A stretch of 37,342 nt of DNA from Nitrospirota bacterium. Lineage in GTDB: Bacteria > Nitrospirota > Nitrospiria > SBBL01 > JAADHI01. Location: the NCBI GenBank assembly GCA_029261215.1, contig JAJDBT010000038.1:1-37342 (forward strand). Reading direction: 5' to 3'. Positions 912 to 37,342 of the stretch are shown here, piece by piece (the first letter of the stretch is position 1; each line of letters starts with the position of its first letter). The notes under the pieces are model-generated. The model searched no databases, was not told where the DNA came from, and saw only the letters and a program-made list of their open reading frames with translations. The translations under genes were made by a program, and so were the position numbers.

Positions 912-2057
912 TTGAATTTGAGAGAAAGAAAAAGAGCTGCTTTCAATTCAGTATATGCTGTTTTACTGTCCTTCTTGCTTCTTTTTATTATTAATCCACT
1001 GTCTGCGTTCGCCCAAGAAGATGAAGCCAGCCCAAAAGCTGGGAAACATCTCTATAAGCACTACTGCGCTGTTTGTCATGGTTTTACCGGGAAAGGAAAT
1101 GGGCCCAATGCCGACAACCTTGGGGATGTTCATCCTACAGACTTGACCAGCGAAGCGGTCGACAAACTCGAAGATGAAGAAATTTACGAGGTGATTGAAG
1201 GCGGGGGGGCTGCCATTGATATTTCCTATTACATGCCGCCTTGGGGGTCGATTCTTTCTTCAGAGCAAATCAACGATATCGTTGCCTATATCCGGACCTT
1301 ATCAGAGGCGAATGGCCGTGAAATTTCTGATGTAGTTCGTTTTGCAGATGTAAGAAGGGAAGGGGATGACAAGTGTTTGATGTGTCATTCTCAGGAACAA
1401 AACCTGCTTCGTCCGATTGCGCCAAATATTGGTCACGAAGGAAGTAAATTACGCAAAGAGTGGTTGAGGGGTTTTTTGAAGGAGCCTGAACTTTTGCGTC
1501 CTGTCGGATTCATGCCTTTTAGCAAATCAAAAATGCCGAACTTTTATTTTACAGATGCCGAAGTTGATGCCTTGGTCGCTTATTTGATGACCTTAAAGGA
1601 TGAAGGGATTGACCCTAATATTTTAGCCGGATGGGACGCGGGAGATCCTGCTGAAATAGAAAAAGGCAAAATTTATTTTGTGGAAGATTATGCCTGTGAT
1701 GGGTGTCACAAGCGCTCTTCTGATGGTGATGGAGGGACGGTGGGGCCTGAGCTTTCTTCTGCGGTAGAACGGATTCGTCCAGAATGGATGTTCTATTGGC
1801 TTAAAAATCCACAGCGAATGCGGCCTGATACTCCAATGCCCAATTTTGATATTCCGGATGAGAAGATCCGTTCTCTCTTGTCCTATCTCTATGGTTCTGG
1901 CGGAAATGCGGCTATGGCCAGGGCGGTTTCAATGGATGAGCCTCTGGATGAAAAACAGCTTGAAAAAGGTAAAAAGATTGTAGAGTCTAAAAATTGTCAA
2001 GGTTGTCATTTAATTGATTCATATAATAGTCAGTCAGGCCCTTTGAGGGATGAGTGA
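912..2057 (+). CDS. Exported tetraheme c-type cytochrome, last domain cut short
   Basis: A 381-residue periplasmic electron carrier with a signal peptide (basic n-region, hydrophobic 14-30, AFA cleavage near 34). Four CXXCH sites sit at residues 52-56, 155-159, 262-266 and 362-366. The first three lie in cytochrome c domains of ordinary size, with candidate axial methionines at MPPWG (108), the KMPN stretch (208) and PMPN (309). The fourth domain stops 15 residues after its CXXCH, so it has no room for the helix and methionine ligand expected of this fold. The start is a TTG with GGAGAGG about five bases upstream. It opens the 15-kb respiratory cluster; the next gene begins 53 bases later. 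It probably passes electrons between the bc-type complex or an external donor and the oxidase. The exact partner cannot be read from sequence. Confidence 0.85.
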   Translation: MNLRERKRAAFNSVYAVLLSFLLLFIINPLSAFAQEDEASPKAGKHLYKHYCAVCHGFTGKGNGPNADNLGDVHPTDLTSEAVDKLEDEEIYEVIEGGGAAIDISYYMPPWGSILSSEQINDIVAYIRTLSEANGREISDVVRFADVRREGDDKCLMCHSQEQNLLRPIAPNIGHEGSKLRKEWLRGFLKEPELLRPVGFMPFSKSKMPNFYFTDAEVDALVAYLMTLKDEGIDPNILAGWDAGDPAEIEKGKIYFVEDYACDGCHKRSSDGDGGTVGPELSSAVERIRPEWMFYWLKNPQRMRPDTPMPNFDIPDEKIRSLLSYLYGSGGNAAMARAVSMDEPLDEKQLEKGKKIVESKNCQGCHLIDSYNSQSGPLRDE

Positions 2058-2110
2058 GTTCCGTTTAAAATATAGAGAGCAAGAATAAACAATTAAGAAA
2101 GGGTATTCGC

Positions 2111-2635
2111 ATGCTTCGAAAATTTCCTCTTTTGATCTTGAGTTTAATGTTCATTTCTCTTTTAGCGTTTCCAAGCCTTGGGCTTGCGGCAGAGGATGAT
2201 GACAAGCCTTTAAAACCCGTCCCAAAGGCTTTTGCGGACAAGCATATGCCCAGTGGTTGGTGGACCGATGAGAAGGTGATCGCAGAAGGCAAGAAGATCT
2301 TTGAAACACGAAAACTGGAATATGAGTACAAAAGAAAAAAGAAGGTTGCAAAAGAGGGTTGCGCAACCTGTCACGGTATTAATGCCAAGAAGGATCGTCC
2401 GAAAAAGCGGGGCGCGAAGGATTTTCGCTCATCCAACAGAATGAACCGTCTTTCTGACAGTTATTGGTTTTGGCGAACTTCAGAGGGTGTGAAAAAAACA
2501 AGCATGCCAGCATGGGGAAAAGAGCTTTCTGAAGAGGAAATCTGGAAAGTAATCGCCTATGAACATACCTGGTCACACGGAAACAAGCCTGCGGTTCATG
2601 ATCATAAGGAAATTGAAAACACTGTCGAAAAGTAA
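2111..2635 (+). CDS. Exported monoheme c-type cytochrome
   Basis: A 174-residue protein with a signal peptide (MLRKF start, hydrophobic 6-24, likely cleavage after LGLAA) and a single CATCH heme site at residues 84-88. A likely axial methionine lies in SMPAWGKELS, typical of cytochrome c class I domains. The region 60-83 before the heme is unusually rich in lysine and arginine, and the C-terminus is rich in histidine and glutamate. It sits between the tetraheme cytochrome and the NuoL-like gene, so it is likely an accessory electron carrier of the same respiratory machine. I recognise the cytochrome c fold but no named family. Confidence 0.8.
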   Translation: MLRKFPLLILSLMFISLLAFPSLGLAAEDDDKPLKPVPKAFADKHMPSGWWTDEKVIAEGKKIFETRKLEYEYKRKKKVAKEGCATCHGINAKKDRPKKRGAKDFRSSNRMNRLSDSYWFWRTSEGVKKTSMPAWGKELSEEEIWKVIAYEHTWSHGNKPAVHDHKEIENTVEK

Positions 2636-2715
2636 TTAGTCCGTATGTGTCGCTTCGTATTGTTGCTTAAAAGCCTTTATCTTCATCGGTATTTGAAGGT
2701 GAAGATAGAAAGAGA

Positions 2716-4263
2716 GTGATGGAAGTAGAATCAATAAAACCCCTATTGGCGGTTTTCATTCCTTTGATCGGGTCAGCCTTTATTCTTTTTGCCCGAAAGA
2801 AGCCGAACATTAGGGAGCTGTGTACTCTCACTACGGCGTTTCTTATGTTTTTTGCCGTATTAAGTATGGTGCCGGATGTCCTTGCGGGGAAAACACTGAC
2901 GTACACTCTGCTCGCTTTCTGGCCCTCTGTGCCTATCGGGTTTCGTGTTGACGGTCTGGGTATGATTTTTGGAATCGTTGCTGCGTTTACCTGGATATTG
3001 ACTACCTTTTATTCGATCGGCTACATGCGGAGTTTGAATGAGCACGCGCAAACACGGTTTTATTTTTGTTTTGCCGTGACCTTGTTTGCGACCGAGGGAG
3101 CCGCTTTTTCAAATAACTGGTTTACGCTCTTTCTTTTTTACGAGCTTATTACTCTGTTTACCTACCCTCTCGTTGCACATCATGAGACACAAGAGGCTTG
3201 GGAAAAAGGAAATAAGTACTTGGCTTATCTGCTCGGTACTTCCAAGGTCTTTTTAATCCCTGCGGTGCTCGGAACCTATTTCTATGCGGGGTCTATTGAT
3301 TTTACGTCAAACGGGATTATGCCTCATGACATAGATAAAACTCTGCTGATTGGAATATATGTTTTTTATTTGGCCGGTATTGGTAAGGTGGCGTTCATGC
3401 CGCTTCATTCATGGTTACCGGCTTCCATGATTGCGCCTACCCCTGTGAGTGCGTTGTTACATGCTGTGGCTGTTGTGAATACTGGCGCATTTTGCGTTTT
3501 AAGGGTCATTGTTAATATCTATGGCATTGACTTGATGCAGAAGCTGGATTTAGGTGTTGTTACGGCGATCATTGCGTGTTTTACCATTATCACCGCTTCC
3601 ATTTATGCCATGAAAAGCAATAATCTGAAGGAACGAATTGCGTATTCCACTGTAAGTCAACTTTCTTACATGGTTTTAGGGGGTGCGCTCTTAACGCCGA
3701 CGGGTATTCGTGGTGGCATCATGCACATTGCGATGCATGCCTTTGCCAAGATCACACTTTTTTTCTGTGCGGGTTCGATCTATGTGGCTACGAGAAAATC
3801 AAACGTTTCAGAATTAAATGGCATTGGACGGAAAATGCCCTGGACAATGGCCGCCTTTGCGATCGCGACTTTGAGTATGGTGGGTATTCCTCCAGCGGGG
3901 GGATTCGTAAGTAAATGGTATCTCATGATTGGTTCTGCTGAAGCAGACGAATTTTGGACGCTGATCGTATTGGCAACAAGTGCCTTGTTGAATGCATTTT
4001 ATTTTGTCCCTATCGTGGTCAATGGTTTTTTTCGACCCTCTGATGACGAACCTGTATCAGAAGCGACAGCAGGTTCTGTTTTGATTCCGCAAAGCGTTGG
4101 CGCTGCCGCCGCGTCGAATGTGGCGAACGGTGGTGCCGCAGTTAGCATTCGGGAGCCGTCACTCTTTGTTGTTCTTCCATTGTGCATTACAGCCGTGGTT
4201 TCTATGGTGCTTGGGATGTATCCCAATTTGTTGTTGGAATTCATCGGGACGATGTTTCGATGA
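2716..4263 (+). CDS. NuoL/MrpA-type proton-translocating antiporter-like membrane subunit
   Basis: A 515-residue polytopic membrane protein of the Proton_antipo_M family (complex I NuoL/M/N and Mrp antiporter subunits). Residues used for proton transfer in this family are present: Glu143 in FYELITL (TM5), Lys224 in GIGKVAF (TM7) and Lys345 in HAFAKITLFF. The stretch LPASMIAPTPVSALLHA is closest to the NuoL/MrpA version of that loop. The C-terminal long amphipathic arm of NuoL is absent. The start is GTG at 2716 or the adjacent ATG at 2719; no strong Shine-Dalgarno decides it. It stands next to a second such subunit and an oxidase, with no hydrophilic complex I subunit (NuoB-I) anywhere in the window. 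That suggests an ion pump attached to the oxidase rather than to NADH dehydrogenase; this is inference. Confidence 0.87.
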   Translation: MMEVESIKPLLAVFIPLIGSAFILFARKKPNIRELCTLTTAFLMFFAVLSMVPDVLAGKTLTYTLLAFWPSVPIGFRVDGLGMIFGIVAAFTWILTTFYSIGYMRSLNEHAQTRFYFCFAVTLFATEGAAFSNNWFTLFLFYELITLFTYPLVAHHETQEAWEKGNKYLAYLLGTSKVFLIPAVLGTYFYAGSIDFTSNGIMPHDIDKTLLIGIYVFYLAGIGKVAFMPLHSWLPASMIAPTPVSALLHAVAVVNTGAFCVLRVIVNIYGIDLMQKLDLGVVTAIIACFTIITASIYAMKSNNLKERIAYSTVSQLSYMVLGGALLTPTGIRGGIMHIAMHAFAKITLFFCAGSIYVATRKSNVSELNGIGRKMPWTMAAFAIATLSMVGIPPAGGFVSKWYLMIGSAEADEFWTLIVLATSALLNAFYFVPIVVNGFFRPSDDEPVSEATAGSVLIPQSVGAAAASNVANGGAAVSIREPSLFVVLPLCITAVVSMVLGMYPNLLLEFIGTMFR

Positions 4264-4334
4264 AGCTGGCTGAAGGGGTGTTTATGTCTGTTGATCTCCA
4301 GATGATTGCAATGTTTATTACGAGGAGCGCATAA

Positions 4335-6137
4335 GTGGAGACTTCAATTCCCCTATGGGTAGTTTTGGTTCCTATCTTGGGGGCCTTTGCTTTACTGATT
4401 AAAAAAGAATCAGATCAATTTCGAAATGCCATTGTGATCGGAAGCAGCACGCTTTCTTTTATCCTTTTGCTGAGTCTGTACAGTTCGGTCATGAAAGGCA
4501 GTGCGCATTACGCCATTTCCTGGTTGCCAGGTTTTGAGATTACTTTTAATGTAGATGCTTCTGGCCTGCTAGTTGCTCTTGTGACAGCCTTCCTTTGGAT
4601 TCTTTGTTCAGTTTACAGCGTTACCTATATGACGCATGAAAAAAAACGACTTCGATATGATTTCTTTTCCCTGTTAACCTTGGCGACAAATCTGGGTGTC
4701 TTGGTCGCCGGTGATTTTTTTACGCTTTTCATCTTTTTTGAAGGCTTGCTGATTTTTCCTTACCCCTTAATTGCACATAAGGAAGATGCTCCAGCAGTAA
4801 AAGGTGCAAATCTCTATCTTTATGTGGGTGTTGCAACCAGTCTGCTGTTGTTATCAGGGATGGTACTCTTAAAATCGTATTCAGGGTCGCTCGCTATTCA
4901 ATCTATTTCTCCTGAAGTTGCAGCCTCTATGAGCACCGCGATTAAGTATCAAATCGCAATACTCATGATCGTCGGTTTTGGAGGGAAGGCTGGATTGTTT
5001 TTTGAACATTTCTGGTTGCCTGAAGCCCATCCCGTTGCCCCCACCCCAGCCTCTGCACTGCTTTCGGCCGCGATGATTAAAGCTGGAGCCTATGGGATTT
5101 TTAGAGTGGTCAATCTGTTGTTCGTCCCTCAGGGTGGATCCATGACGGGAGACTGGTTGACCTTGAGCAATATTGGTTATTGGACGATCATCATTGGAAG
5201 CATTACGATGTTTTTTGCGGTGATTTCGGCCTTGATTGCAACCAATTCAAAGCGGATGCTGGCTTTTCATAGCATCAGTCAAATGGGTTATATTGTCATG
5301 GGAATTGGATGTGCGGCTTATTTGGGGCAGCACGGGGCCGTAGGTGCTGCAGGCGCTCTATATCATATCGTTAATCACGCACTTTTTAAGGCCGCTCTCT
5401 TTTTGGGTGTCGGGGCTGTTTATTTTAGGACAAATGAGCTGGACATGTACAAGCTTGGTGGTCTAATGAAAAATATGCCTGTGACTGCGATTTGTCTGTT
5501 CATTGCAGTTTGTGGCATTTCCGGTGTCCCTTTTTTCAATGGCTTTGCCAGTAAAACGATTCTGCATCATGCCATCATTGAGTCCTATGAGCATGGCCAT
5601 GATATGACGCTGTGGGTTGTGGAGAAAATATTTATTGTCACGGCGGCGGGTACTTTTGCCTCTAACTTTAAGCTGTTCTATTTAATGTTTAGAGGGAATC
5701 GACCAAAACAATATGACGATGTGGCACCGGCACCGCTTCCCATGAAAATTGGAATGATTGGTTTCTCCGTTGCGATTCTCTTTCTGGGTTTATTTCCAAA
5801 CTGGCTGCTTGAAACTGCGATTGGTCCTGCATTGGCTCCTCTTGGTTTTGACTCTGGGGCAGATGGATACCGCCTTATCTATGATGTGCAAACACAAATT
5901 TCAGGTTTGGCGATTCTGTACCCGGGCACAGAAAGCTTTTCGATGGTCTTGCATAACCTCTTTTCCGGTGGGATCGCCTTGGTTCTCGGAGCGGGGCTTC
6001 TCTATGGTGGTTTGAAATATCATTGGTTTAACTTCAGGGTACCAACATTTTTTACATTTGATTTTTATGCGACTAAAATACTCAGACGATTATTGAATCC
6101 TTGGTTCCTTGCTGATGGTAGTCGTAAGCGCGTATGA
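4335..6137 (+). CDS. NuoM/MrpD-type proton-translocating antiporter-like membrane subunit
   Basis: A 600-residue polytopic protein of the same Proton_antipo_M family as its upstream neighbour but a different subtype. Glu136 (IFFEGLL), Lys218 (FGGKAGLFF), Lys249 (AMIKAGAYG) and the lysine of HALFKAALF mark the usual proton path. The Lys249 motif is found in NuoM/MrpD-like members and is replaced by VVNTGAF in the neighbour, so the two are not recent duplicates. A C-terminal extension beyond residue 500 adds at least one further membrane span (around 545-567). The start is GTG with GGAG eight bases before it. A 71-base gap separates it from the upstream gene. It probably couples electron flow through the adjacent bd-like oxidase to proton or sodium movement. 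Confidence 0.87.
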   Translation: METSIPLWVVLVPILGAFALLIKKESDQFRNAIVIGSSTLSFILLLSLYSSVMKGSAHYAISWLPGFEITFNVDASGLLVALVTAFLWILCSVYSVTYMTHEKKRLRYDFFSLLTLATNLGVLVAGDFFTLFIFFEGLLIFPYPLIAHKEDAPAVKGANLYLYVGVATSLLLLSGMVLLKSYSGSLAIQSISPEVAASMSTAIKYQIAILMIVGFGGKAGLFFEHFWLPEAHPVAPTPASALLSAAMIKAGAYGIFRVVNLLFVPQGGSMTGDWLTLSNIGYWTIIIGSITMFFAVISALIATNSKRMLAFHSISQMGYIVMGIGCAAYLGQHGAVGAAGALYHIVNHALFKAALFLGVGAVYFRTNELDMYKLGGLMKNMPVTAICLFIAVCGISGVPFFNGFASKTILHHAIIESYEHGHDMTLWVVEKIFIVTAAGTFASNFKLFYLMFRGNRPKQYDDVAPAPLPMKIGMIGFSVAILFLGLFPNWLLETAIGPALAPLGFDSGADGYRLIYDVQTQISGLAILYPGTESFSMVLHNLFSGGIALVLGAGLLYGGLKYHWFNFRVPTFFTFDFYATKILRRLLNPWFLADGSRKRV

Positions 6138-6171
6138 GATTTATAGGTGTAGTCATGAAAGGGGGAATAAA

Positions 6172-8571
6172 ATGACTTTAAAGAAAATAACAACACATCC
6201 CAGGGCCTGGGGCGTATTCCTCTTCGCATTGCTCGTGTTCCTTTCTTCTCCTTCTGTTTATGCTGAAGTTTCCGAGGCGATCAGTTATCGTGATATGAGC
6301 AGTATGAGTAGCCGGAACCTTGTCTGGTTGCTCGCTCAGGTACACATTTTGTTCGGCGCGTTTTTGTTGGGTGTGCCGATGTTTATTATCGCCATTGAGA
6401 TTATGGGGGTTAAAACCGGGGAAGTTCGTTATGACAAATTAGCCCACGAATTTACAGATTTGATTGTCGCGGTTTTTGCGACAACGGCTCTGCTCGGTAT
6501 TTTCTTCTTGTTCTCTCTCCTGGTTTTTTATCCTGAATTAATGCGGGTTATGGCGGATATTTTCAATCCGACTTACTACATCTATCTATCCCTATTCCTG
6601 GCAGAGACGGGTTGTGTCTACATTTATTGGTCTAAATGGGAGGAGTGGCAGAACAGAAAAGCGCTGCACATATTCTGGGGCATGATGCTGAATATTGCTG
6701 GCCTGGCCCTCGTCTTTTTACCCAGTGCCTATCTCGCTTTTCAGGCCAGTCCTGTGGTTTTGAGTCCTGATTTGGGTCCATGGGAAAAGGCCTGGACGGC
6801 GATTAATAACCCTACGTGGATTCCGGTTGTCATCCATCGCGTCGTTGGAAATCTGATTCTCGGTGGTTTTGTGTGTGGGGCCTATGCGGGCGTCGCCTAT
6901 CTTGGTGCGAAAACACAAGAGGAAAAGGAACATTACGACTGGATGGGCTATGTCGGTAATTTTATCGGCGTTTTTGGTCTACTCCCGATGCCTTTTGCGG
7001 GTTATTACCTTATGCGGGAAGTCTATCAGTATAACCAGCAGATGGGAATTACCTTAATGGGGGGTATTCTCTCATGGTTATTTATTCTTCAAGCGGTTCT
7101 TATTGGTGTCCTTTTTGTGGGGTCCAATTATTATTTCTGGCAGGGGATTGCCTATAGAACAGGTTCTGGACCCAAATATAAAAAACCAATTATTTTTATG
7201 TTGATTGCCTTGGTCGGTGCTTTTTCTGTCTGGCTGACTCCTCATTCTCTTGTGGCCAGTGTTTCTGAAGCCAGAGCAATGGGTGGTTCTCATCATCCAC
7301 TGCTAGGTGTTTTTGGGGTGATGTCGGCTAAGTTGACTGTGGTCAACCTGATGATTGTGACCACATTTATCTGTTTCATTCTTTATTGGAGGGCAGATAA
7401 AGAGATTACAGTGAAGTGGGGAAAGGCTGCGAATATTTTTACCGTCGCACTGATTGTTGTGGCCGTTATTTTTATTATCTGGTTGGGTGTTTATGGGTAT
7501 TTTGTGCCTTCGGTTTATCGTGTAAATGTCCTTTCTGTGGTTCAAGTTTTGGCTGTACTTTTTGTGATGTTTACGATTACGCCTTTAACGGCACTTTCTC
7601 TTCGGTCTGCGAAACTCACCCATAAGATGAAGTGGGGCGTAATGCCTGCACGTTCACAGTATGCCCTCGTGATTAATGCGGTTTTTGTTGTGCTTACAAT
7701 GGCATTGATGGGTTACGCTCGTTCTGCTTCCCGGGTTCACTGGCATATCTATGGGGTTTTGGAAGATACGTCTACTCATGCGTATACCCCGACTTTGGGG
7801 GTTGCGTCCTTTCTGTTCGTATTAAGTACTGCAATTTTTTGTGTAATGGTAGGGATTGTTTTTTGGACCTCACATACAATTCGGCATAATCGTTTTTCCA
7901 CACGATATTTTTATCTTGCCCCTGTTTTTATGTGGTTTTGCGATCTTTTTGAAAAAGACGAAAAAAAACGTCTTCCAAAAGAGGTGGGTGGTCCCCGTTT
8001 TGTGATGTTGAAGGTAACGACCGTTGTGAGTGTCTTTTTGCTGACCTATACCTATGTCGGTTATCAGGTTCCCCAAAAAGTGGGTATGCCGCCAGAAAAA
8101 AAGGAATTGGATCTCACTATGGTCAAAACCCAGGACGATATGGTTCAAATGGGTCAGGACATTTTTTACAGTAAAGGGCAATGCGCACTTTGTCACAGTA
8201 TTGGAGAAGGGCATGGGCGTTGTCCTAATCTGGCTGGTGTAGGAGAGCGGCTTACACGAGAATTTATATACGAGGCCCTGACGAATCCCAAGGCGTATGT
8301 GAAAATGGATTACGATCCTGCGATGCCTGTGAACTATTCTGCTGAAATGCCAGCGATTGATAAACCTCCTATTGGTCTTTCTGAAGTGGAGTTAATGACA
8401 ATCATCGCTTTTGTCCAAAGTAATGGGGGAAAGGTGACTGTGACGCCGGATGAACTGAGGGCAATTTCTGAAAAATCGAAAGAAACTCCAGTGCCGGAAC
8501 CTGTTGAACACAATAACGAAGAAAAACCAAAGGCTCCCGAAGAAATCGCAATGAGTTTGAGCGGATCGTAG
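6172..8571 (+). CDS. Cytochrome bd-like oxidase subunit I fused to a C-terminal cytochrome c domain
   Basis: A 799-residue protein likely to be the terminal oxidase of the cluster. It has a cleavable-looking signal segment (to SVYA at 31), then a CydA-like membrane domain with about a dozen or more spans. His58 in AQVHILFG and His222 in VIHRVVGN align with the CydA heme ligands. The helix carrying the CydA GRQPW signature is recognisable (W524, then IYGVL), but the signature reads SRVHW, and the glutamate two residues before it in CydA is serine here. A cytochrome c domain follows (CALCH at 671-675, MPV or MPA as possible ligand), ending in a Pro/Glu-rich tail. No CydB gene is present. Loss of the quinol-site motif plus a fused cytochrome c suggests oxidation of cytochrome c rather than quinol; this is inference. 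The in-frame ATG at 6109 is rejected because the ATG at 6172 has a GGGGG ribosome site and gives a proper signal sequence. Confidence 0.85.
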   Translation: MTLKKITTHPRAWGVFLFALLVFLSSPSVYAEVSEAISYRDMSSMSSRNLVWLLAQVHILFGAFLLGVPMFIIAIEIMGVKTGEVRYDKLAHEFTDLIVAVFATTALLGIFFLFSLLVFYPELMRVMADIFNPTYYIYLSLFLAETGCVYIYWSKWEEWQNRKALHIFWGMMLNIAGLALVFLPSAYLAFQASPVVLSPDLGPWEKAWTAINNPTWIPVVIHRVVGNLILGGFVCGAYAGVAYLGAKTQEEKEHYDWMGYVGNFIGVFGLLPMPFAGYYLMREVYQYNQQMGITLMGGILSWLFILQAVLIGVLFVGSNYYFWQGIAYRTGSGPKYKKPIIFMLIALVGAFSVWLTPHSLVASVSEARAMGGSHHPLLGVFGVMSAKLTVVNLMIVTTFICFILYWRADKEITVKWGKAANIFTVALIVVAVIFIIWLGVYGYFVPSVYRVNVLSVVQVLAVLFVMFTITPLTALSLRSAKLTHKMKWGVMPARSQYALVINAVFVVLTMALMGYARSASRVHWHIYGVLEDTSTHAYTPTLGVASFLFVLSTAIFCVMVGIVFWTSHTIRHNRFSTRYFYLAPVFMWFCDLFEKDEKKRLPKEVGGPRFVMLKVTTVVSVFLLTYTYVGYQVPQKVGMPPEKKELDLTMVKTQDDMVQMGQDIFYSKGQCALCHSIGEGHGRCPNLAGVGERLTREFIYEALTNPKAYVKMDYDPAMPVNYSAEMPAIDKPPIGLSEVELMTIIAFVQSNGGKVTVTPDELRAISEKSKETPVPEPVEHNNEEKPKAPEEIAMSLSGS

Positions 8572-8683
8572 TTTGGTATTTTAGCGTGCAATCAAAAGGT
8601 ATTGATATTCCTGTCCTGGGTTTTTGAGATGGGCAGCAAATAATTGGACTTAATGTTTTAGTTATCGGTTTTCAGGGGAGTAG

Positions 8684-9535
8684 GTGAAAAAAAGATTTTT
8701 GATTGAAAAGTCAGTTGTGGTGAAAGCCATTCCGCTATTATTGCTCTTTGTATTCACATTAGCAGGATGTGAGAATGAACATGTTGCCAAAGGCCATAAG
8801 TTATTTAGTCGCTACTGTTCATCGTGTCATGGTGAGCAGGGCGATGGGAATGGATATAATGCGGGCAACCTAGACCCGCGGCCTCGTGATTTGACCGACA
8901 GCGAAGAAGAATACATGGCCAAATTGAGCAATGATGAAATATTTGAAGTTTTGAAAGTGGGAGGATATGGTGTAGATCTCGCTGGAACAATGCCTGTTTG
9001 GGGGAAAGTTTTTTCTGAGGAACAGCTTTGGTCCTTAGTCGCATACATCCGTACACTTCATCCCAATGAGGCAGAAGAAATTGTGTTTACGAAACCCGGA
9101 ACAAAGGATCCGGTATTCGATAAAACAAAACCTCAGTATTCCAGGGTGAGGGAAAAGGTATTTGATGATCTGATGGCCTCATTGGTTCCGGATGAAGACG
9201 CTTTTGATGAGCAAGTGGCAATTGGTGAAGAGGTATTTGAGGAAAGAGGATGCATTGGGTGTCATATTGTGAATGGCAAAGGCGGAACACTCGGTCCTGA
9301 TTTGTCCAAAGCGGGTTCGATGCTACAAACTCAGTTTATTTTTAGGTGGGTTGTCAATCCACAGGGGTTTAAGGTAAAAACGAGAATGCCTAATTTGGAT
9401 TTACCTAACGAGGACGCGCTGGCTGTTTCGTTGTATGTCAGCACGCTCAAGGGCGGGAGTTCTGTCATTCAGGGCAGTCAAGATTCATCCATGGATGAAG
9501 AAGAGGTGGATGCTGAAGATGAGGAGGAACTGTAG
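8684..9535 (+). CDS. Diheme c-type cytochrome lipoprotein
   Basis: A 283-residue lipoprotein: the hydrophobic segment 15-28 ends in LAGC, with Cys29 the likely acylation site. There are two cytochrome c domains: CSSCH at 45-49 with Met103 (GTMPVWG), and CIGCH at 190-194 with Met235 (TRMPNLD). The first domain closely resembles the first domain of the cytochrome at 912, and the second resembles that protein's third. The tail is very acidic (Asp/Glu-rich over the last 18 residues). GTG start with AGGGGAG upstream. It lies directly after the oxidase and only two bases before the next cytochrome gene, so it may be the electron-entry subunit of the oxidase. Confidence 0.85.
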   Translation: MKKRFLIEKSVVVKAIPLLLLFVFTLAGCENEHVAKGHKLFSRYCSSCHGEQGDGNGYNAGNLDPRPRDLTDSEEEYMAKLSNDEIFEVLKVGGYGVDLAGTMPVWGKVFSEEQLWSLVAYIRTLHPNEAEEIVFTKPGTKDPVFDKTKPQYSRVREKVFDDLMASLVPDEDAFDEQVAIGEEVFEERGCIGCHIVNGKGGTLGPDLSKAGSMLQTQFIFRWVVNPQGFKVKTRMPNLDLPNEDALAVSLYVSTLKGGSSVIQGSQDSSMDEEEVDAEDEEEL

Positions 9536-9537
9536 CC

Positions 9538-10287
9538 GTGAAGTTACCTTTGATTGCTAAGGCCTTTCTGCTGGAAATTGGATTCTATTTGTTTCTTAAG
9601 TTAGGTATGCCTCTTATTACGAGTCCACTGCCTTCTAGTGTCATTTTCATGTATATGGCCTTGGTGACCATTTCTATTCTGTTGTACGTTTCTATTTTTG
9701 AAGATGACTTTAATCAATTCTACGTTCCGATTGTTGATTTTATCAGAGGAGATGAGAATGAGGGGATTGGGAGAAAAATGAGTCGGACCGCTCTCTTTAT
9801 CTTGATTCCCCTCTTTGTCGGTTTTCGCTCTTATCAAAGTGTAAAACCCAACTTCAATCCGCCATTCCCAAACCGAGTGATTCATCCTGCGCCCCCTGGA
9901 TCTGCAGCCGGCTTTATGAATCCTTATGAGGGTGAGGTTGCACATCGGGAGGAGTACATACAGGAAGGGCGAGATATTTTTTACCAAAACTGTGTGTTCT
10001 GCCATGGGGATAAATTAGACGGAAACGGTCTTTTTGCGGATGCATTGAATGTTAAACCTGCGAACTTTGCCGATCCGACAACGATATCGATGTTGCAGGA
10101 ATCATTCGTTTTTTGGCGTGTAAAAACAGGAGGCATCGGTTTACCTGAAGAATCAACCCCATGGGATTCGGCAATGCCGAGGTGGGAGTTGATTTTGTCG
10201 GAAGAAGAGCGTTGGAAGGCGATCATGTTTTTATATGATTATACCGGCTATAAACCAAGGACTTGGGAATTAGATGCAGGTGAATAA
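9538..10287 (+). CDS. Membrane-anchored monoheme c-type cytochrome
   Basis: A 249-residue protein with hydrophobic spans near 7-26, 34-54 and 84-97 followed by a periplasmic cytochrome c domain (CVFCH at 152-156; methionine in the SAMPRWE stretch). The segment before the heme is proline-rich. GTG start with GAGGAGG ten bases upstream, inside the end of the preceding gene. Its 3' end overlaps the next gene by 14 bases, a sign of translational coupling. Role inferred from position: a membrane-bound electron carrier of the oxidase assembly. No specific named family recognised. Confidence 0.8.
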   Translation: MKLPLIAKAFLLEIGFYLFLKLGMPLITSPLPSSVIFMYMALVTISILLYVSIFEDDFNQFYVPIVDFIRGDENEGIGRKMSRTALFILIPLFVGFRSYQSVKPNFNPPFPNRVIHPAPPGSAAGFMNPYEGEVAHREEYIQEGRDIFYQNCVFCHGDKLDGNGLFADALNVKPANFADPTTISMLQESFVFWRVKTGGIGLPEESTPWDSAMPRWELILSEEERWKAIMFLYDYTGYKPRTWELDAGE

Positions 10288-11854
10288 ACTGGAAAACAAA
10301 AATACAAAAAAAATCATATTCGGATTGTTTGGCATATTCCTACTTATCTCTGGCTTAGGTCCAAATCTTTATGCAGATGAGACGGAAGAGGCTTCCCCTC
10401 AAAAACAGGAAGACAACCTTCCTTCGGATGATCTGGCTGCTGGAAAAATAATTTATGAAAAGCGATGTATCTCATGTCATGGGAATGAAGGCGATGGCGA
10501 TGGGCCAGCTGCAGATCGATTTGAGCCGAAACCACGTAGTTTTAAGAAGGCGGAGTTTAAATATCGCAGTACCCCGAGAAATGAATTGCCTACCGACGAA
10601 GATTTGTTCAGAGCCGTAACAAATGGACTTCCTGGAACCGGGATGCCTGATTGGGCCGATGTTTTAAACGAAAAGAAGCGTAGACAAGTCATAAAATACA
10701 TTAAAACATTTTCTGATAAATGGGAAAAACAAAAAGAAAAACCACAGGTGATCACAGTAGGGGAGCCTATCCCCACGAGTGCCGAAAGTATTGAGCGTGG
10801 CCAGAAGCAATTTACGGCCTTGGGTTGCACGCTGTGTCATGGCACCGAAGGCCGAGGGGATGGCCCAACTTCATTGGTCTTAAGAAATCACCGTGGAGAT
10901 CCCGTTTTTCCTAGAAACCTCAATAAGAATTGGCTTTTTCGAGGTGGCGGTGACGCAAAGGATATTTATAAAAGGGTGAACACGGGCTTAAACGGTACGC
11001 CAATGCCATCCTTTGCAGATAAACTTGATAATGAAAAAAGTTGGGATTTAGCCAACTATGTTCGTTCGCTCTCGCCCCCCGTAAAGCCTGAAAGAGGCTC
11101 TCTTATCAAACCTCTTAAGATTGAAGAGGCAGTGCCTACAGACCCTGAGGATCCTCTTTGGGCAGAAGCGGCTTCCAGCTGGTTCCCCATGATGGGACAG
11201 ATTTCATTTGAAGAACGCTTGTTCACGCCAACGGTAACTGATATCACGGTGCAATCTATTTATAACGAAAAAGAAATTGGGTTTAAGCTCATTTGGGATG
11301 ACCGCAGTCATAGCAAGGCCAGTAAACCCAGCGCCAAGATGAAAACATATACAGATCAGGTCGCGATACAATTTCCTGAAAAACTGCAACCCGGTGGAGT
11401 TAAGAAGCCCTATTTTATTATGGGCGACGAAAAGTTAGGTGTGAATCTATGGAATTGGCGCTCTGAAGACAAGCACGTATTTGAGACAAACGCCAATGGT
11501 ATTTTAAATGGAGAAATAGAACAGGAAAAAAGTGACCTGAGTGGAGAGGGTATTTTCAAGAATGGCCAGTATCAAGTTGTGATCAAACGGTCGTTGCAGA
11601 CTGCTGATAAGGAAAAAGATATTCAGTTTGAAGTGGGTGAATTTTATCCCATAGCATTTTTTGCCATGGATGGAACGAATGGAGAAGTGGGAACAAAGAG
11701 GTCAATTACACCCTGGTATTTTGTCTTAATGGAACCTGAAACACCGAAGAGTGTTTATATTTTTCCACCGATTGTTGTTCTTCTTGTCTTTGGAATGGAG
11801 TTTGTTTTAGTGAAAATTTTAAAAAAGAATAGAAAGGCATCAGGTTCATCTTGA
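10274..11854 (+). CDS. Diheme cytochrome c with an ethylbenzene-dehydrogenase-type heme-b domain
   Basis: A 526-residue membrane-anchored protein. After an N-terminal hydrophobic segment (13-29) come two cytochrome c domains (CISCH 65-69 with GMPDW; CTLCH 185-189 with PMPSF). Residues about 290-490 then look like the heme-b-binding domain of ethylbenzene dehydrogenase gamma subunit and related DMSO-reductase-family partners: DPLWAEA opening, IGFKLIWDD strand, and PYFIMGD with Met383 as a candidate heme ligand. A single membrane span (about 497-517) and a basic tail end the protein. In known enzymes this domain passes electrons to or from a molybdenum enzyme, yet no molybdenum subunit is present here. 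The start overlaps the previous gene by 14 bases; GTG at 10280 is an alternative start. Confidence 0.8.
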   Translation: MQVNKLENKNTKKIIFGLFGIFLLISGLGPNLYADETEEASPQKQEDNLPSDDLAAGKIIYEKRCISCHGNEGDGDGPAADRFEPKPRSFKKAEFKYRSTPRNELPTDEDLFRAVTNGLPGTGMPDWADVLNEKKRRQVIKYIKTFSDKWEKQKEKPQVITVGEPIPTSAESIERGQKQFTALGCTLCHGTEGRGDGPTSLVLRNHRGDPVFPRNLNKNWLFRGGGDAKDIYKRVNTGLNGTPMPSFADKLDNEKSWDLANYVRSLSPPVKPERGSLIKPLKIEEAVPTDPEDPLWAEAASSWFPMMGQISFEERLFTPTVTDITVQSIYNEKEIGFKLIWDDRSHSKASKPSAKMKTYTDQVAIQFPEKLQPGGVKKPYFIMGDEKLGVNLWNWRSEDKHVFETNANGILNGEIEQEKSDLSGEGIFKNGQYQVVIKRSLQTADKEKDIQFEVGEFYPIAFFAMDGTNGEVGTKRSITPWYFVLMEPETPKSVYIFPPIVVLLVFGMEFVLVKILKKNRKASGSS

Positions 11855-11966
11855 TTCTGGGGGTATATTCAGTTAGAATTTGCCACTTTATTCCTTAAAT
11901 TAAGTAAATGGTGAGGCGAGATAATCAAGTATTAATTATCTTTTAAAGTATATAAATAAAAGGCGA

Positions 11967-12461
11967 ATGATTCCCATTATCTTTATGCATGGGGTTATCG
12001 CACTTTACTCAAGCCCAGTTTTTGCGACTCATGAAGCTGATCACCGATATATCATTTCTGGTCAGGTAAGGGATGCTTCTGGAAACCCTCAGAAAGAAGT
12101 TCTGGTTTCATTAGAACATAAAGGAGGGGAAAAGAAGGACGTAAAAACTGACCATTTAGGTCGTTATGAAGTTCTATTTCACCTCCATAATGAAAATCTG
12201 GGTGAAAAAATAATTGTTTCATATGGAGATATTCAACGAAAAATAACAATTACGTTTGATCCGGAAGATAAATTCACTAATCGGGGAGATGTTGTAGATT
12301 TTGGTGCCCCAAGCAATGAGCCAACTCTCCCTTGGGGAATTGTCGGAATGGGCTCACTGCTGGGCAGCTTCGTCTTACTTTATTTTTTTAAAAAGAGTAA
12401 GAAATCAAAAGGACGCAGTAAAAAGCAGTCGTCTACTAAAAAGAAGAGGAAAAAGGTTTAG
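11967..12461 (+). CDS. Small exported, membrane-anchored protein with a carboxypeptidase-regulatory-like beta-sandwich
   Basis: A 164-residue protein with an N-terminal export signal (ending SSPVFA), a beta-sandwich region (ISGQVRDASGNPQKEVLVSL, then DHLGRYEV) of the carboxypeptidase D regulatory-domain type, a C-terminal membrane span (about 121-142) and a tail of almost only Lys, Arg and Ser. No heme or metal motif is seen. The ATG at 11967 gives a signal peptide without the usual positive n-region. The frame stays open upstream to an ATT at 11931 that would add YLLKYINKRR, so the true start may be upstream. It lies between the heme-b cytochrome and the Rieske gene and could be an assembly or scaffold subunit; function unknown. 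Confidence 0.65.
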   Translation: MIPIIFMHGVIALYSSPVFATHEADHRYIISGQVRDASGNPQKEVLVSLEHKGGEKKDVKTDHLGRYEVLFHLHNENLGEKIIVSYGDIQRKITITFDPEDKFTNRGDVVDFGAPSNEPTLPWGIVGMGSLLGSFVLLYFFKKSKKSKGRSKKQSSTKKKRKKV

Positions 12462-12499
12462 CATGTTGCCTATCAGGGACATTGGGGAGCGTTTAGGTC

Positions 12500-13057
12500 A
12501 TGGCAGATAATAAAGACAATAGTCTGGACGAGGATGTTAGTCGGAGACGGTTTTTTACACTCATGGGGCTTGGGGTCGGTTGGGGTGGACTTTTGACGGC
12601 CCTTGGTGGGGTTGGTGTTGGCGCTGCACGGTATATGTTGCCCTCTGTTCTTTATGAACCACCCACCGTTTTTAAAATTGGAAAACCTGCTGACTACGGA
12701 ATCGGCGTAGATACAAAATTAAAAAAAGAGCGGCAAATTTGGGTTGTTCGTAACGAACGTGGTCTATATGTCATGGTTGCTATTTGCCGCCATTTAGGCT
12801 GTACGCCAAATTTCTTTCAAGACCAGAGTCTCTTCCGATGTCCGTGTCATGGGAGCATTTATGATACGTATGGGAATGTTTTGGGTGGCCCAGCGCCCCG
12901 AACCTTATGGCGGGCTGCAGTGTCACTGGATCCCATTGATGGTCAGATTGTTGTGAGCTTTAATACAAGGCAGGATCCGGATCCGAAAGGGACACCAGAG
13001 GGCCTCATGGTGGATGAAATGGAACGAGAAGTTGAGCCTTACTTCTTAAAGGTCTAG
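12500..13057 (+). CDS. Rieske iron-sulfur protein of a cytochrome bc-type complex
   Basis: A 185-residue Rieske protein. The twin-arginine-like SRRRFF at residues 14-19 precedes one membrane anchor (about 20-43), as usual for Tat-dependent Rieske proteins. The [2Fe-2S] site is complete: CRHLGC at 96-101 and CPCHG at 114-118, with Cys96/His98/Cys114/His117 as ligands and Cys101/Cys116 for the disulfide. It takes one electron from quinol at the Qo site and delivers it to a cytochrome c. It is followed after 22 bases by cytochrome b, then subunit IV, the standard order for a split b6f-like complex. Confidence 0.93.
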
Positions 13058-13079
13058 ATGTGGAGGAGATAGAGCAAGT

Positions 13080-13850
13080 ATGTTGAAATTACTCCAGAAA
13101 ATTCGTTCGATTGTGAACAAAACCCAGGTTTTTAAGTCGATTTTCAGGCATGGGTATCCGGATACGGATGGCAATCGCGCCTTGGTGATGTTCAGTAACG
13201 TTATCCTTCATTTACACCCGGTTCGTGTTCGAAGGGGAGCGCTTAAAATAAAATACACGTGGTGTCTTGGTGGCTTAACTTTTTTGTTTTTTATTTTGCT
13301 TGCAATCACAGGTGTTATTTTAATGTTTTATTATGTGCCTGATACAAGACGTGCATACAATGATATTCGTGACTTGGGGACTGTAATCTACTTTGGAAGC
13401 CTTTTTAGGGCTGTTCATCGTTGGTCTGCCCACGCAATGGTTTTTTCGGTGTGGATGCATATGACACGTGTTTTTATGACCGGATCGTATAAACCGCCTA
13501 GGGAGTTTAACTGGGTTGTTGGTGTGATTTTATTGGTCACGACGCTTGTTTTGAGTTGGACCGGCTATTTGCTTCCTTGGGATCAGCTCGCTCTTTGGGC
13601 CGTAACAGTCGGAAGCAAAATGGCAGAAGCCACGCCATTTATTGGTGCCGCGGGGCCGTTTGGTCCAGAACTAGGTCGAAACTCCGGGAATGATATGGCT
13701 TTTGCGCTTTTAGGGGGAACTGTTGTTGGGCAAAGTGCTTTGCTCCGTTTTTATGTCCTTCATTGTCTTGCACTCCCTTTAATTACGGCCTTATTTATCG
13801 CGGTCCATTTTTGGAGAATTCGAAAAGATGGTTTTTCCGGACCACTTTAA
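13080..13850 (+). CDS. Cytochrome b6-type subunit with heme c-i cysteine
   Basis: A 256-residue diheme cytochrome b, the N-terminal half of a split cytochrome b. Heme ligands are His113/His127 and His228/His243; the HX13H and HX14H spacing is that of cytochrome b6. The sequence YTWCLGG puts Cys62 just ahead of the first core helix, matching the CLGG of cytochrome b6, where the cysteine covalently binds the extra heme c-i (c-n). The N-terminus has about 30 extra polar residues, and no SRP-type signal is needed. Start supported by GGAGGAG about twelve bases upstream. Works with the Rieske protein and subunit IV to oxidise quinol and pump protons by the Q cycle. Confidence 0.93.
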
Positions 13851-13875
13851 TCGCTTGTTTAAGTAGAGGAAACAT

Positions 13876-14730
13876 ATGTCAGAAAAAATCTCTGAAGATT
13901 CAAATGCTTTGTCCAAGCAGAGTAAGCTGGCCCAACTCATCAAGAAAACGGCCTCTGAAAAAATAGGCCCGGAAAACACCGTATTGGTTTGGCCGAACCT
14001 GGTTTACCTTGAATTGATCGCGATCATGGTTTCGGTTGCTGTCATCTTGTTTCTTTCGTTGGTTTCACCCGCCCCCCTGGAAGAATTGGCCAGTGCGGAC
14101 ACAACGCCAAACCCGACAAAGGCCCCGTGGTATTTTTTAGGATTGCAGGAATTATTGGTCTATTTTGATCCTTGGTTGGCTGGCATGGTTCTTCCGACGT
14201 TTATCATTATTGGGTTAGTGCTGATTCCTTACTTGGATCCCAGTCCGCTTGGAAAAGGATATTACACCTTTAAAGAACGGAAGTTTTCGATGTTGGGGTT
14301 TGGTTTTGGATTATCACTATGGTGGGTTCTAATCTTGATTGGTGTGTTTTTTAGAGGTTTAGATTGGTCTTGGTATTGGCCATGGGATGATCCTCATTTT
14401 CACCAACCTGCGGGTGCTGTAAAACTCATGGATTTAGAAATAATCCTTCAAAGCACCCTGGGCTTGAGTGAAGCGCCCTTGACGACACTGGGGAGATATG
14501 CGATTACCAAAGCAAATGTCTTAACTTGGGCCCTGTTCTTAGGGTTTTATGGTGTAGGTTTTACGGTTCCATTTTTATTTTTCAGGGATTTTTATCGGAA
14601 ACTCGGTTTTGTTCGTTATAACCTCACCATGTTCTTTTTCATTTCAATGATGGGTGTCCCGATGAAGATTTTTTTGAGATTGTTGGCTGATGTCAAGTAT
14701 GTCCTTGTGACGCCCTGGTTTAAATTCTAA
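13876..14730 (+). CDS. Cytochrome b subunit IV-like protein (C-terminal half of cytochrome b)
   Basis: A 284-residue membrane protein matching subunit IV of b6f-like complexes, but longer than the roughly 160 residues of the cyanobacterial form. The Qo-site motif normally written PEWY is APWY here (Ala83-Pro84-Trp85-Tyr86), in TKAPWYFLGLQELL; variants at this position are known from menaquinone- and low-potential-quinone organisms. After three core helices (about 44-64, 103-121 and 140-158), two further hydrophobic spans near 218-235 and 246-268 form an extra C-terminal module. A 35-residue polar N-terminus precedes the first helix. AGAGG lies before the ATG. It forms the Qo site together with the cytochrome b6 encoded 25 bases upstream. 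Confidence 0.88.
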   Translation: MSEKISEDSNALSKQSKLAQLIKKTASEKIGPENTVLVWPNLVYLELIAIMVSVAVILFLSLVSPAPLEELASADTTPNPTKAPWYFLGLQELLVYFDPWLAGMVLPTFIIIGLVLIPYLDPSPLGKGYYTFKERKFSMLGFGFGLSLWWVLILIGVFFRGLDWSWYWPWDDPHFHQPAGAVKLMDLEIILQSTLGLSEAPLTTLGRYAITKANVLTWALFLGFYGVGFTVPFLFFRDFYRKLGFVRYNLTMFFFISMMGVPMKIFLRLLADVKYVLVTPWFKF

Positions 14731-14753
14731 TCGTAACGAAAGAGGTGTTTTGA

Positions 14754-14894
14754 ATGGATGATATCTGGGCATATCCTTATCGGCTGGGAATTGGACTCTT
14801 TTTTCTTGTAGGAACGCTTGTATTTATGGGTGCGTTTATTGGGATCGCGGTTTGGCTCGAAAAAGCGCTGAAAGAAGACGACACTAAAAAGTAG
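14754..14894 (+). CDS. 46-residue single-span membrane protein
   Basis: A short gene: ATG at 14754, TAG at 14892-14894, preceded by AGAGGTG about eight bases before the start. The product begins MDDIWAYPYRLG, has one strongly hydrophobic span (about residues 11-34) and ends in a charged tail EDDTKK. It sits 23 bases after subunit IV and 60 bases before the tetraheme cytochrome, all on one strand. Size and position resemble the small single-helix subunits (PetG/L/M/N-like or CcoQ/CydX-like) that stabilise respiratory complexes; I see no sequence identity to any named one. The reading frame, ribosome site and membrane span are seen directly; the role is inferred. Confidence 0.7.
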   Translation: MDDIWAYPYRLGIGLFFLVGTLVFMGAFIGIAVWLEKALKEDDTKK

Positions 14895-14954
14895 CAGAAT
14901 TATTTTCGATGCGACAGCTGATGATGTTGTGGATATAGGGGGAAGAGTCACCGT

Positions 14955-15878
14955 ATGGTTAAGCATATAGTCTTTGGTATTTCAGGCTTTTTAATAGTTC
15001 TTCAACTTGGAATTTTTGTTTATCGTGAAGAAACAGCTGAATGGAAAGGGTACCAAGCAACCTATTATAAAAAGCTTGCTGAAATGACGGGTGACCCCAA
15101 TATTTTAAAAAACCCGATTAAAGTGACTCAGATTTGGGACAAAAATTTAAACCGGGCAGATCGATGTACAACCTGTCATGCGGGTATTGATAATCCTGCT
15201 TTTGAAAACGAACCACAACCTTATACGACCCACCCAAACTTTAAAGATGAGGGATATATTTCCAAGCATGCTTTTGAAAAGTTTGGCTGTACCATTTGTC
15301 ACGAAGGCAACGGTCAGGCGGTGACTGTTGCCGCAACGCACGGTGTGGTCAAACATCTCGATCATCAGCCTTTATCGACACCCTATGTTCAGGCGTCTTG
15401 CACCAAGTGTCACTACGAACTTCTTGTGAGGGAGGTTAACTGGCCTGAGGCAGATGTTTTAATGAAAGGAAAGCAGTTGGCTTTTGATCTGGGTTGTGGC
15501 GCTTGCCATGCCATTCGTCAATTTGGAACCAATTCTCCCTTGGCTCCGGAGCTTTCAAATATGGGCAGTAAGACTGAACTGGCGTTTACACTTGTCCATG
15601 ATTTTTCACATATAGAATCCGAGGACCACATTACCCGTGTCTGGGAATATGAACATTTTCTTGATCCTCAAAAGATTGTGCCTGGAAACCCGGATGCGGC
15701 CGATGAAAAAGAAAGAAATTCCCCCACGATTATGCCAAATTATGGTTTGACTGAAGAAGAGGCTGTGGCGCTTACTGTATTTGTGCTCTCTTTAAGGGAT
15801 CCTGAAATTGAAAAAATTCCTAAGCAATATTTCCCCAAAATAGCCAATCATGACGGGTTTCTTCAGTATCGAAAGTAA
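14955..15878 (+). CDS. Membrane-anchored tetraheme c-type cytochrome
   Basis: A 307-residue protein with an uncleaved-looking N-terminal anchor (residues 4-22) and four CXXCH sites: CTTCH 71-75, CTICH 112-116, CTKCH 149-153 and CGACH 181-185. The first three are closely spaced in a histidine-rich region, as in multiheme cytochromes with bis-histidine ligation, while the last begins a more ordinary cytochrome c domain with a likely methionine in IMPNYGL. It closes the respiratory cluster, just after the bc-type subunits. The likely role is the cytochrome c1/f replacement that takes electrons from the Rieske protein; that is inference from its place in the operon. Confidence 0.83.
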   Translation: MVKHIVFGISGFLIVLQLGIFVYREETAEWKGYQATYYKKLAEMTGDPNILKNPIKVTQIWDKNLNRADRCTTCHAGIDNPAFENEPQPYTTHPNFKDEGYISKHAFEKFGCTICHEGNGQAVTVAATHGVVKHLDHQPLSTPYVQASCTKCHYELLVREVNWPEADVLMKGKQLAFDLGCGACHAIRQFGTNSPLAPELSNMGSKTELAFTLVHDFSHIESEDHITRVWEYEHFLDPQKIVPGNPDAADEKERNSPTIMPNYGLTEEEAVALTVFVLSLRDPEIEKIPKQYFPKIANHDGFLQYRK

Positions 15879-16135
15879 AAAATAATAACGAGGCTGGAGT
15901 TCACCAAACTTTTTCCCTCTTATCCATTTTTTTATTTTTACCTGTTTTTCTGGAAAACAACATCGCCAGGTGAAGTTTAATGTTAAAAAAAGGGGCAATT
16001 CCCCTTGACAATTTGAAAGATTACTATATATTTACTTCCGTTTTTACATGCCACTTCAGACGGGAATTTATTCTAAAGGCATTGGGTTAATCCTTGGGTG
16101 GTTTTCGCCCTTATTTTAGTGATAGAGACAATATA
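15879..16135. other. Intergenic region between respiratory and polyamine clusters
   Basis: This gap is AT-rich and contains the only clear sigma-70-like promoter I see in the window (16005-16032). A 6-bp hairpin (AAGGGG 15990-15995, CCCCTT 16001-16006) overlaps its -35 box. Read on the minus strand this hairpin is followed by seven Ts, like a leftward terminator, although no minus-strand gene lies to the right. No convincing rightward terminator for the respiratory cluster was found. Confidence 0.5.
16005..16032 (+). promoter_or_regulatory. Sigma-70-like promoter for the polyamine genes
   Basis: TTGACA at 16005-16010 is a perfect -35 box. TATATT at 16027-16032 is a good -10 box, separated by 16 bases. 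Transcription would start near 16040, about 95 bases before the AdoMet decarboxylase start at 16136. The surrounding AT-rich sequence supports the call. Confidence 0.6.
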
Positions 16136-16552
16136 GTGGAGACATTAGGAACACATATTCTTCTTGAATTAGAAGATTGTAAGTATGAGATTTTGGACGA
16201 TTTAAAGGGGGTTGAGGAAGCTTTGCTTGAAGCGGCGAGGAGAGCAAAAGCGACGATCATTGAGAGCCGCTTTCACCAGTTTAGTCCTTTTGGAATAAGC
16301 GGTGTTGTTGTCATTGCAGAGTCTCATCTTACGATTCATACTTGGCCGGAACACGGTTATGCCGCAGTGGATATTTTTACCTGTGGAAATGTGTTGCAGC
16401 CAGGCGTGGCAACCGATTTTCTCATAAAGATATTTGAATCAAAAAATCCATCTATTGTCGAGTTAAAGAGAGGTCTCTTTTTGTCGCGAGAAAGAACGAC
16501 GACAGCAAATATTTCTAATGACGAGGGGCCTCTCGAACATGTCTTCGGATAA
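16136..16552 (+). CDS. speH: S-adenosylmethionine decarboxylase proenzyme (bacterial SpeH type)
   Basis: A 138-residue pyruvoyl enzyme that makes decarboxylated AdoMet, the aminopropyl donor for polyamine synthesis. The self-cleavage site AESHLTIHTWPE places the pyruvoyl-forming serine at residue 64 after Glu63, matching the short class found in Bacillus and Thermotoga. The motif AVDIFTCG is also conserved. I chose the GTG at 16136 because the protein then begins METLG-like, as in the family; a TTG at 16094 would add 14 unconserved residues. Its end overlaps the spermidine synthase start by 14 bases. Confidence 0.93.
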   Translation: METLGTHILLELEDCKYEILDDLKGVEEALLEAARRAKATIIESRFHQFSPFGISGVVVIAESHLTIHTWPEHGYAAVDIFTCGNVLQPGVATDFLIKIFESKNPSIVELKRGLFLSRERTTTANISNDEGPLEHVFG

Positions 16553-17459: not shown

Positions 17460-17501
17460 TTTCACAATGATCTTTCCATTGTCTTCCCAGAACTTATATC
17501 C

Positions 17502-36708: not shown

Positions 36709-37342
36709 TTATTCAAAATACTGCACATATTCTCCGTAACCTTCTTTTTCTAGGTTTTCTTTGGGGATAAAGTGAAGTGAGGCAGAATTAATACAATAAC
36801 GCAAGCCTGTCGGCGCGGGCCCGTCGTCGAAGACGTGGCCGAGGTGAGAGTCTCCGGCTTTGCTTCGGACTTCGGTTCTCACGGCAAAAAAAGACTGGTC
36901 TGTTTTTTCGATCAACTGCTCTTTTTCGATGGCTTGGGTAAAGCTTGGCCACCCGGTGCCGGAATCAAACTTGTCTGATGAGCTGAACAGGGGTTCTCCA
37001 GAGACAATATCGACATAAATGCCTTCGGCTTTATTGTTCCAGTAATCATTGGCAAAGGGCGGTTCTGTGCCGTCTTCCTGGGTGACTTTATATTGTAGCG
37101 GCGTCAGTTTTTCTTTGAGTACGGTTTTTGGTGCTTTGGGTGTTTGTTCTTTCATGGTCGTCTCTTTCTCCCCCCAGGTTTCTTTAATATAGCGCGCACG
37201 ACCTGAGCCTTCTTTGTAAAATGCGTATCGGGCGGCATTCTTTTTATAATAATCCTGATGATAGTCTTCTGCCCGGTAAAAAGGCATGGCCTCCCGAATT
37301 TCCGTCACGATGGGCTTGTCGTATCGACCTGAGGCGTCTCCC
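36709..37342 (-). CDS. msrAB: Methionine sulfoxide reductase A-B fusion (5' end outside the window)
   Basis: The reading frame stays open to the right edge, so the gene is partial. Its first visible residues ([13 protein letters not shown], then [12 protein letters not shown]) are the end of MsrA. A linker of about 25 residues leads into a complete MsrB domain with [17 protein letters not shown] and the catalytic cysteine in RYCINSASL. The enzyme repairs methionine sulfoxide in proteins. MsrB lacks the two CXXC zinc pairs, and threonine stands before GWPSF where many members have a resolving cysteine, so recycling may use a different cysteine or thioredoxin directly. No internal start is needed. 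Confidence 0.9.

Follow-up and report, generated by a model that had tools for sequence, protein, structure and literature searches.

The gene cluster around the oxidase

The window (the whole stretch of 37,342 nucleotides of a Nitrospirota contig that was analyzed) contains a same-strand run of genes from 912 to 15878, arranged around an open reading frame (6172-8571, forward strand) that begins with an ATG at 6172, has AAAGGGGGAAT ahead of its start, and encodes a protein of 799 amino acids. The features of this cluster are listed below, with the evidence for each in parentheses.

912-2057, +: multiheme c-type cytochrome (Pfam)
2111-2635, +: c-type cytochrome (Pfam)
2716-4263, +: antiporter-type pump subunit D, related to the D subunits of complex I (NF006236, 667.5 bits, cut-off 663; trees)
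4335-6137, +: second antiporter-type pump subunit, termed type A, no ortholog of the type B that usually stands here (PF00361, E 2e-51; tree, alignment)
6172-8571, +: bd-like (CydA-fold) oxidase with C-terminal cytochrome c domain, 799 amino acids (PF01654, E 4e-17; PF00034, E 4.7e-5; CydA structures, Z 31.3)
8101-8427, +: cytochrome c domain of the oxidase, heme motif CALCH at 8182-8196 (Pfam; placed in the periplasm by topology)
8684-9535, +: diheme c-type cytochrome (Pfam)
9538-10287, +: c-type cytochrome with N-terminal hydrophobic part (Pfam; sequence)
10274-11854, +: NxrC-like periplasmic heme-b protein (EB_dh) with two cytochrome c domains (PF09459, E 2.7e-16; TIGR03477, E 3.9e-26, below cut-off)
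11967-12461, +: carboxypeptidase-regulatory-like domain protein (Pfam, below curated cut-off)
12500-13057, +: Rieske iron-sulfur protein (Pfam)
13080-13850, +: cytochrome b, N-terminal half (Pfam)
13876-14730, +: putative cytochrome b C-terminal half (no Pfam match; position and conservation)
14955-15878, +: multiheme c-type cytochrome (Pfam)

The two antiporter genes directly upstream of the oxidase are the unusual part of this cluster, and were missed by an earlier note on this DNA. No NuoH/K/J-like coupling subunit was recognized by Pfam between 912 and 15878, and this run holds no second bd-like (CydA') gene. The oxidase itself has Pfam matches to Cyt_bd_oxida_I (PF01654, residues 48-289) and Cytochrom_C (PF00034, residues 660-750) and to nothing else, a COX1 domain being absent. 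The earlier note had described a fused C-terminal cytochrome c and no CydB, and both statements hold: there is one CxxCH domain (C671, C674, and H675), and CydB (PF02322) occurs in none of the eight genomes of the host family, the window genome included. As a main novelty, the fusion was rejected, since fused and split forms both occur among the relatives of the oxidase, the fused form frequently. These relatives comprise 98 sequences (the window included), retained from 188 phmmer matches after removal of frames shorter than 400 amino acids, frames with X, and duplicates.

Elsewhere in the window, a polyamine set (adjacent genes for S-adenosylmethionine decarboxylase, spermidine synthase, and an Orn/Lys/Arg decarboxylase) lies at 16094-19001, and two long overlapping frames on the reverse strand (22974-29590) encode a UvrD-type helicase with a PD-(D/E)XK nuclease and a partner nuclease, an AddAB-like pair. 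A secreted-looking protein at 33725-35536 has two halves that are near-identical repeats, and near the window end (36709-37308) is a SelR (MsrB) gene, of which the N-terminal stretch matches the end of a PMSR (MsrA) domain.

The host genome is 97% complete and has three bd-like genes, two of them on contig C106. It contains no heme-copper oxidase (PF00115); among the eight genomes of the host family (f1) none has one, vs five of the six genomes of a presumed freshwater family (f5). With heme-copper oxidase and CydB both missing from all eight family genomes, the oxygen reductases found from these protein families are all bd-like. The complex I loci of the host carry five (C32) and four (C18) antiporter-type genes in a row. 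A strict Cyc2-type motif, which we take to be a marker of Mn/Fe oxidation, has no matches in the host genome, a result that says little. Some of the named kin of the oxidase are Troglogloeales metagenome-assembled genomes, the heme-copper oxidase pattern of f1 and f5 matches the marine/freshwater split as outlined by Yu 2022 (PMC9040806), and the host is presumably a marine-type member of Ca. Manganitrophaceae. In a genome of another family (L155; G008:C158, f2), antiporter-type genes stand in a D-B-M-M row, within which the contig ends; complex I with extra pump genes may thus not be limited to Ca. Manganitrophaceae, contrary to the published view.

Fold, quinol site, and heme residues

The fold was examined with an AlphaFold2 model of moderate quality (mean pLDDT 66, with residues 50-270 mostly near 90). 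Ten solved CydA chains align with this model (Z 28.4-31.3, 337-355 residues, 3.4-4.1 Å), the top match at Z 31.3 over 349 residues (3.7 Å) delimiting a CydA-like core at residues 42-574, which bears out the bd-type fold proposed previously. Alternative complex III subunits are the second-best fold match (Z 18.2-20.3), and polysulfide reductase PsrC, which binds menaquinone, also aligns (Z 14.1). At the level of sequence, profile-profile alignment with CydA covers residues 53-288 and nothing past 288, and a search of PDB sequences matched only one canonical bd and diheme cytochromes, so that the protein has no solved close relative. The model contains 14 membrane helices, and Lys and Arg make up 26 of 127 residues in inside loops vs 6 of 155 in outside loops; by the positive-inside rule, His358 and His525 are predicted to face the periplasm, as is the cytochrome c domain, which shares a side with the conserved His.

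Residues were compared between E. coli CydA (from NC_000913) and the 98 relatives, the window included. The positions of H58, H222, S518, and W524 are as the earlier note had given them, and the features that bear on heme binding are:

6343-6345, +: His58, equivalent to E. coli CydA His19 (His in 96 of the 96 relatives with a letter there)
6835-6837, +: His222, equivalent to E. coli CydA His186 (His in 98 of 98)
7243-7245, +: His358, near-invariant, periplasmic side, candidate new heme ligand (97 of 98; topology)
7729-7746, +: SRVHWH (residues 520-525), at the place of GRQPW (Arg521 in 97 of 97, His525 in 97 of 97)

In CydA, we take His19 to be the active-site heme ligand and His186 the heme b558 ligand, and both positions are occupied by His here; E107 is likewise kept in 95 of the 98 relatives. 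The residues presumed to form the quinol loop of CydA, K252 and E257, are replaced by Leu295 and Leu300 in the window oxidase and by L/M/Q and L/F, respectively, among the relatives, the original residues occurring in 0 of 98 in each case. Together with M393 and E445, these residues are invariant across nine CydA (alignment A2). The replacements support loss of the quinol site, and the model shows helix in the Q-loop region. No clear equivalents of E99, M393, and E445 were seen in the alignment to E. coli CydA; Met occupies the M393 place in 2 of the 74 relatives with a letter there, and in ungapped register Ser518 falls at the E445 place (Ser in 94 of 97 relatives), in agreement with the glutamate-to-serine change noted before.

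The pairing of SRVHW with GRQPW, which the earlier note had read as an altered quinol motif, stands in part. It scores higher than any other place in the protein (12.4), but the sequence match is weak, with 93 of 500 shuffles scoring as high, and as an independent proof of homology it was rejected. The register is supported because the three-dimensional alignment spans residues 42-574 and residue 521 is Arg in 97 of 97 relatives. Quinol residues have indeed been lost; the GRQPW motif, however, presumably adjoins the heme-b595 ligand E445, whereas K252 and E257 lie elsewhere. The invariant His525 and the near-invariant His358 had been overlooked, and these, like Arg521 and His166 (98 of 98), are features of the family. 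Heme ligation in this oxidase may have changed, and His358 may be one of the ligands.

Known relatives and the antiporter pair

The oxidase is not new in kind but belongs, as an ordinary representative, to a known, uncharacterized family. Oxidases of bd-like type without the quinol site have already been published for Nitrospira, Nitrospina, and anammox bacteria (PMC3578206; PMC6606698), and that of Nitrospina is described as having 14 helices, a Q-loop replaced by helices, and missing quinol residues (PMC3578206). Such proteins belong, by the accounts in PMC10839748 and PMC12342949, to the OR-N family of Murali 2021, for which cytochrome c is named as the likely donor (PMC10839748). Judged by the described features, the window oxidase resembles OR-N in its CydA-like core with active-site His ligands and no quinol site, its probable cytochrome c donor, and its occurrence in Nitrospirota and Nitrospinota, but its cluster is without a CydA' gene, whereas many Nitrospirales clusters have a second bd-like gene. 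With the Nitrospira, Nitrospina, and Kuenenia proteins it shares approximately 14 membrane helices, the replacement of the Q-loop by helices, the missing quinol residues, and cytochromes c and an alternative NxrC as neighbors; the window differs in adding the antiporter pair, and in the fusion of a cytochrome c domain that is separate in many Nitrospirales. Compared with canonical CydAB, the fold and the His19/His186 positions are retained, whereas CydB, the quinol residues, and Met393/Glu445 are lacking and extra helices and a heme c domain are present.

The cluster at 912-15878 fits TO_2, which is described with two MrpD-like subunits, in that set confined to Ca. Manganitrophaceae, and is suggested to generate or dissipate a motive force (Yu 2022; PMC9040806). 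Common to both are a bd-like protein with two MrpD-like antiporter subunits, a periplasm-accessible cytochrome b (EB_dh, 10274-11854), a membrane cytochrome b (13080-13850), cytochromes c, and a Nitrospirota relative with five antiporter-type genes in one complex I locus. Two differences are that the second antiporter of the window is type A, and that the unit of D, B, and bd-like genes (D-B-bd) also occurs in three genomes outside the order. Besides Yu 2022, no paper tying MrpD to these oxidases was found in a search that was thin in subscription journals.

Of the 146 genomes from the class, 24 have a close D subunit (E up to 1e-120) and 133 have a close bd-like gene (E up to 1e-180). The two genes adjoin in 15 (all eight genomes of f1; G011, G013, G014, and G017 of f5; G031 and G036 of f10; and G076 of f6), three of which are outside the order; the contig of G015 ends at D. 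The 17 loci with adjoining D and bd-like genes have type A as the second antiporter in four (the window, G001, G006-C62, and G007) and type B in 13. Type A was found in 1 of 245 sampled genomes of the phylum, the window's own, in a thin sample that presumably is without the carriers G001, G006, and G007. Type A has the Glu and Lys that we take to be the proton carriers of antiporter subunits, and by alignment D has all of them but the TM8 Lys.

The surroundings of the pair vary. Two loci, L078 (G006) and L081 (G005), are second copies in which D-B-bd stands without Rieske, cytochrome b, or NxrC-like genes; of their neighbors, those recognized by Pfam are CBS-domain, CstA, and sigma-54-activator genes, with cytochrome c also in L078. 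The pump pair therefore accompanies the oxidase rather than the quinone-reactive part. G031, G036, and G076 carry the pair within a Nitrospirales-type cluster, immediately after the bd-like gene, and in L096 and L148 such a cluster has a second bd-like gene besides the D/B pair. At L148 (G076:C79), a single genome of the large f6 family has bd-like, D, and B genes inserted into its cluster; misbinning is possible there because this is one contig of 31.8 kb.

We analyzed phylogenies of the B, D, and bd-like proteins, read without a known direction. The label CI in the D and B trees denotes any D or B gene not adjoining a bd-like gene, and includes G019, G034, G128, and G130, which are without a demonstrated complex I partner. 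D and type B are related to their namesakes in the complex I of the host. The bd-linked sequences outside the order group, in the B tree, with bd-unlinked B subunits (100/99, 100/100) and apart from TO_2. Within TO_2, the L084 (G003) sequence branches as sister to the B subunit of the five-pump complex I (100/100), as a result of which the TO_2 sequences alone need two changes, forced by well-supported branches. Full-length bd-linked B are 506-553 amino acids long and other B 564-765 (lengths start at the first Met of each open frame and leave out the split type B frame of G017, 344 amino acids), and alignment to two complex I subunits of the host places this difference in a long C-terminal arm. 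By these trees and alignments, type B became linked to bd-like genes on more than one occasion, and in every case it lacks the C-terminal arm.

The oxidases of TO_2 form one clade in the bd tree (100/99). Independent origins of the pump-linked oxidases were considered and rejected, as a single clade that unites them is not rejected by the bd tree (AU p 0.30), and neither is one clade of the three oxidases outside the order (AU p 0.25). The D tree is unresolved, with all bd-linked D on one side of a branch with support 67/91. Since the B tree alone requires more than one switch, the second subunit is the sole one for which repeated exchange has been demonstrated.

Proposed function and alternatives

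We propose, with a probability of roughly 0.6, that the protein is a cytochrome-c-fed bd-type O2 reductase with which two antiporter-type subunits probably assemble to translocate ions. Periplasmic cytochromes c would pass electrons to the fused heme c, and from there they would reach b-type hemes in the CydA-like core on its periplasmic side (at His58, His222, and probably His358/His525), where O2 would be reduced. Oxidation of cytochrome c by this protein would be the entry step. The two upstream antiporter-type subunits, probably in complex with the oxidase, would move ions during electron flow. To our knowledge, bd enzymes are otherwise without a pump. The strongest argument for coupling comes from gene neighborhoods, in which the link to a two-subunit pump recurs, stands alone, and is exchangeable.

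An unlikely though reasonable alternative is that the protein is not an O2 reductase but a membrane electron-transfer part, i.e., a CydA/NrfD-like heme protein that links cytochromes c to another carrier and anchors the Rieske/cytochrome b and NxrC-like proteins. Homologs are present in two copies in 'Ca. Anammoxibacter' (L041), an anaerobic lineage, and not every relative need therefore reduce O2. Alternative complex III is the second-best match of the fold, and the Nitrospina paper of 2013, in which the function of the bd-like protein is called 'enigmatic,' suggests an alternative complex III-like role if quinone is reachable (PMC3578206). Against this, the equivalents of H19, H186, and E107 are kept, and the family genomes have no oxygen reductase of another family, although the two bd-like genes on C106 could serve instead. 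Somewhat less probable again is the reverse or bifurcating use proposed by Yu 2022 (PMC9040806), by which cytochrome c electrons derived from Mn(II) are split between O2 and quinone while ion inflow through the antiporter pair pushes electrons uphill; the Rieske and cytochrome b genes of the cluster and the host complex I locus with five antiporter-type genes in a row are compatible with it, but in L078 and L081 D-B-bd occurs with neither Rieske nor cytochrome b. A quinol oxidase that binds quinol at another site, for which the CydA fold and the alignment of PsrC could speak, is very improbable, as K252 and E257 are replaced in all 98 relatives and the model has helix where the Q-loop would be.

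If the cytochrome-c-fed, ion-translocating oxidase is the correct reading, it might, as a tentative suggestion that we hold with less than even confidence, constitute a third design of ion-pumping terminal oxidase: a cytochrome-c-fed bd-type reductase with a two-subunit pump of complex I type, the second subunit of which would have been swapped more than once, without the lateral arm. OR-N enzymes have been proposed as the main oxygen reductases of many nitrite oxidizers and presumed manganese oxidizers, in accounts that call their function unproven. The stand-alone D-B-bd unit offers a small, testable target for asking whether a bd-type oxidase can pump ions.
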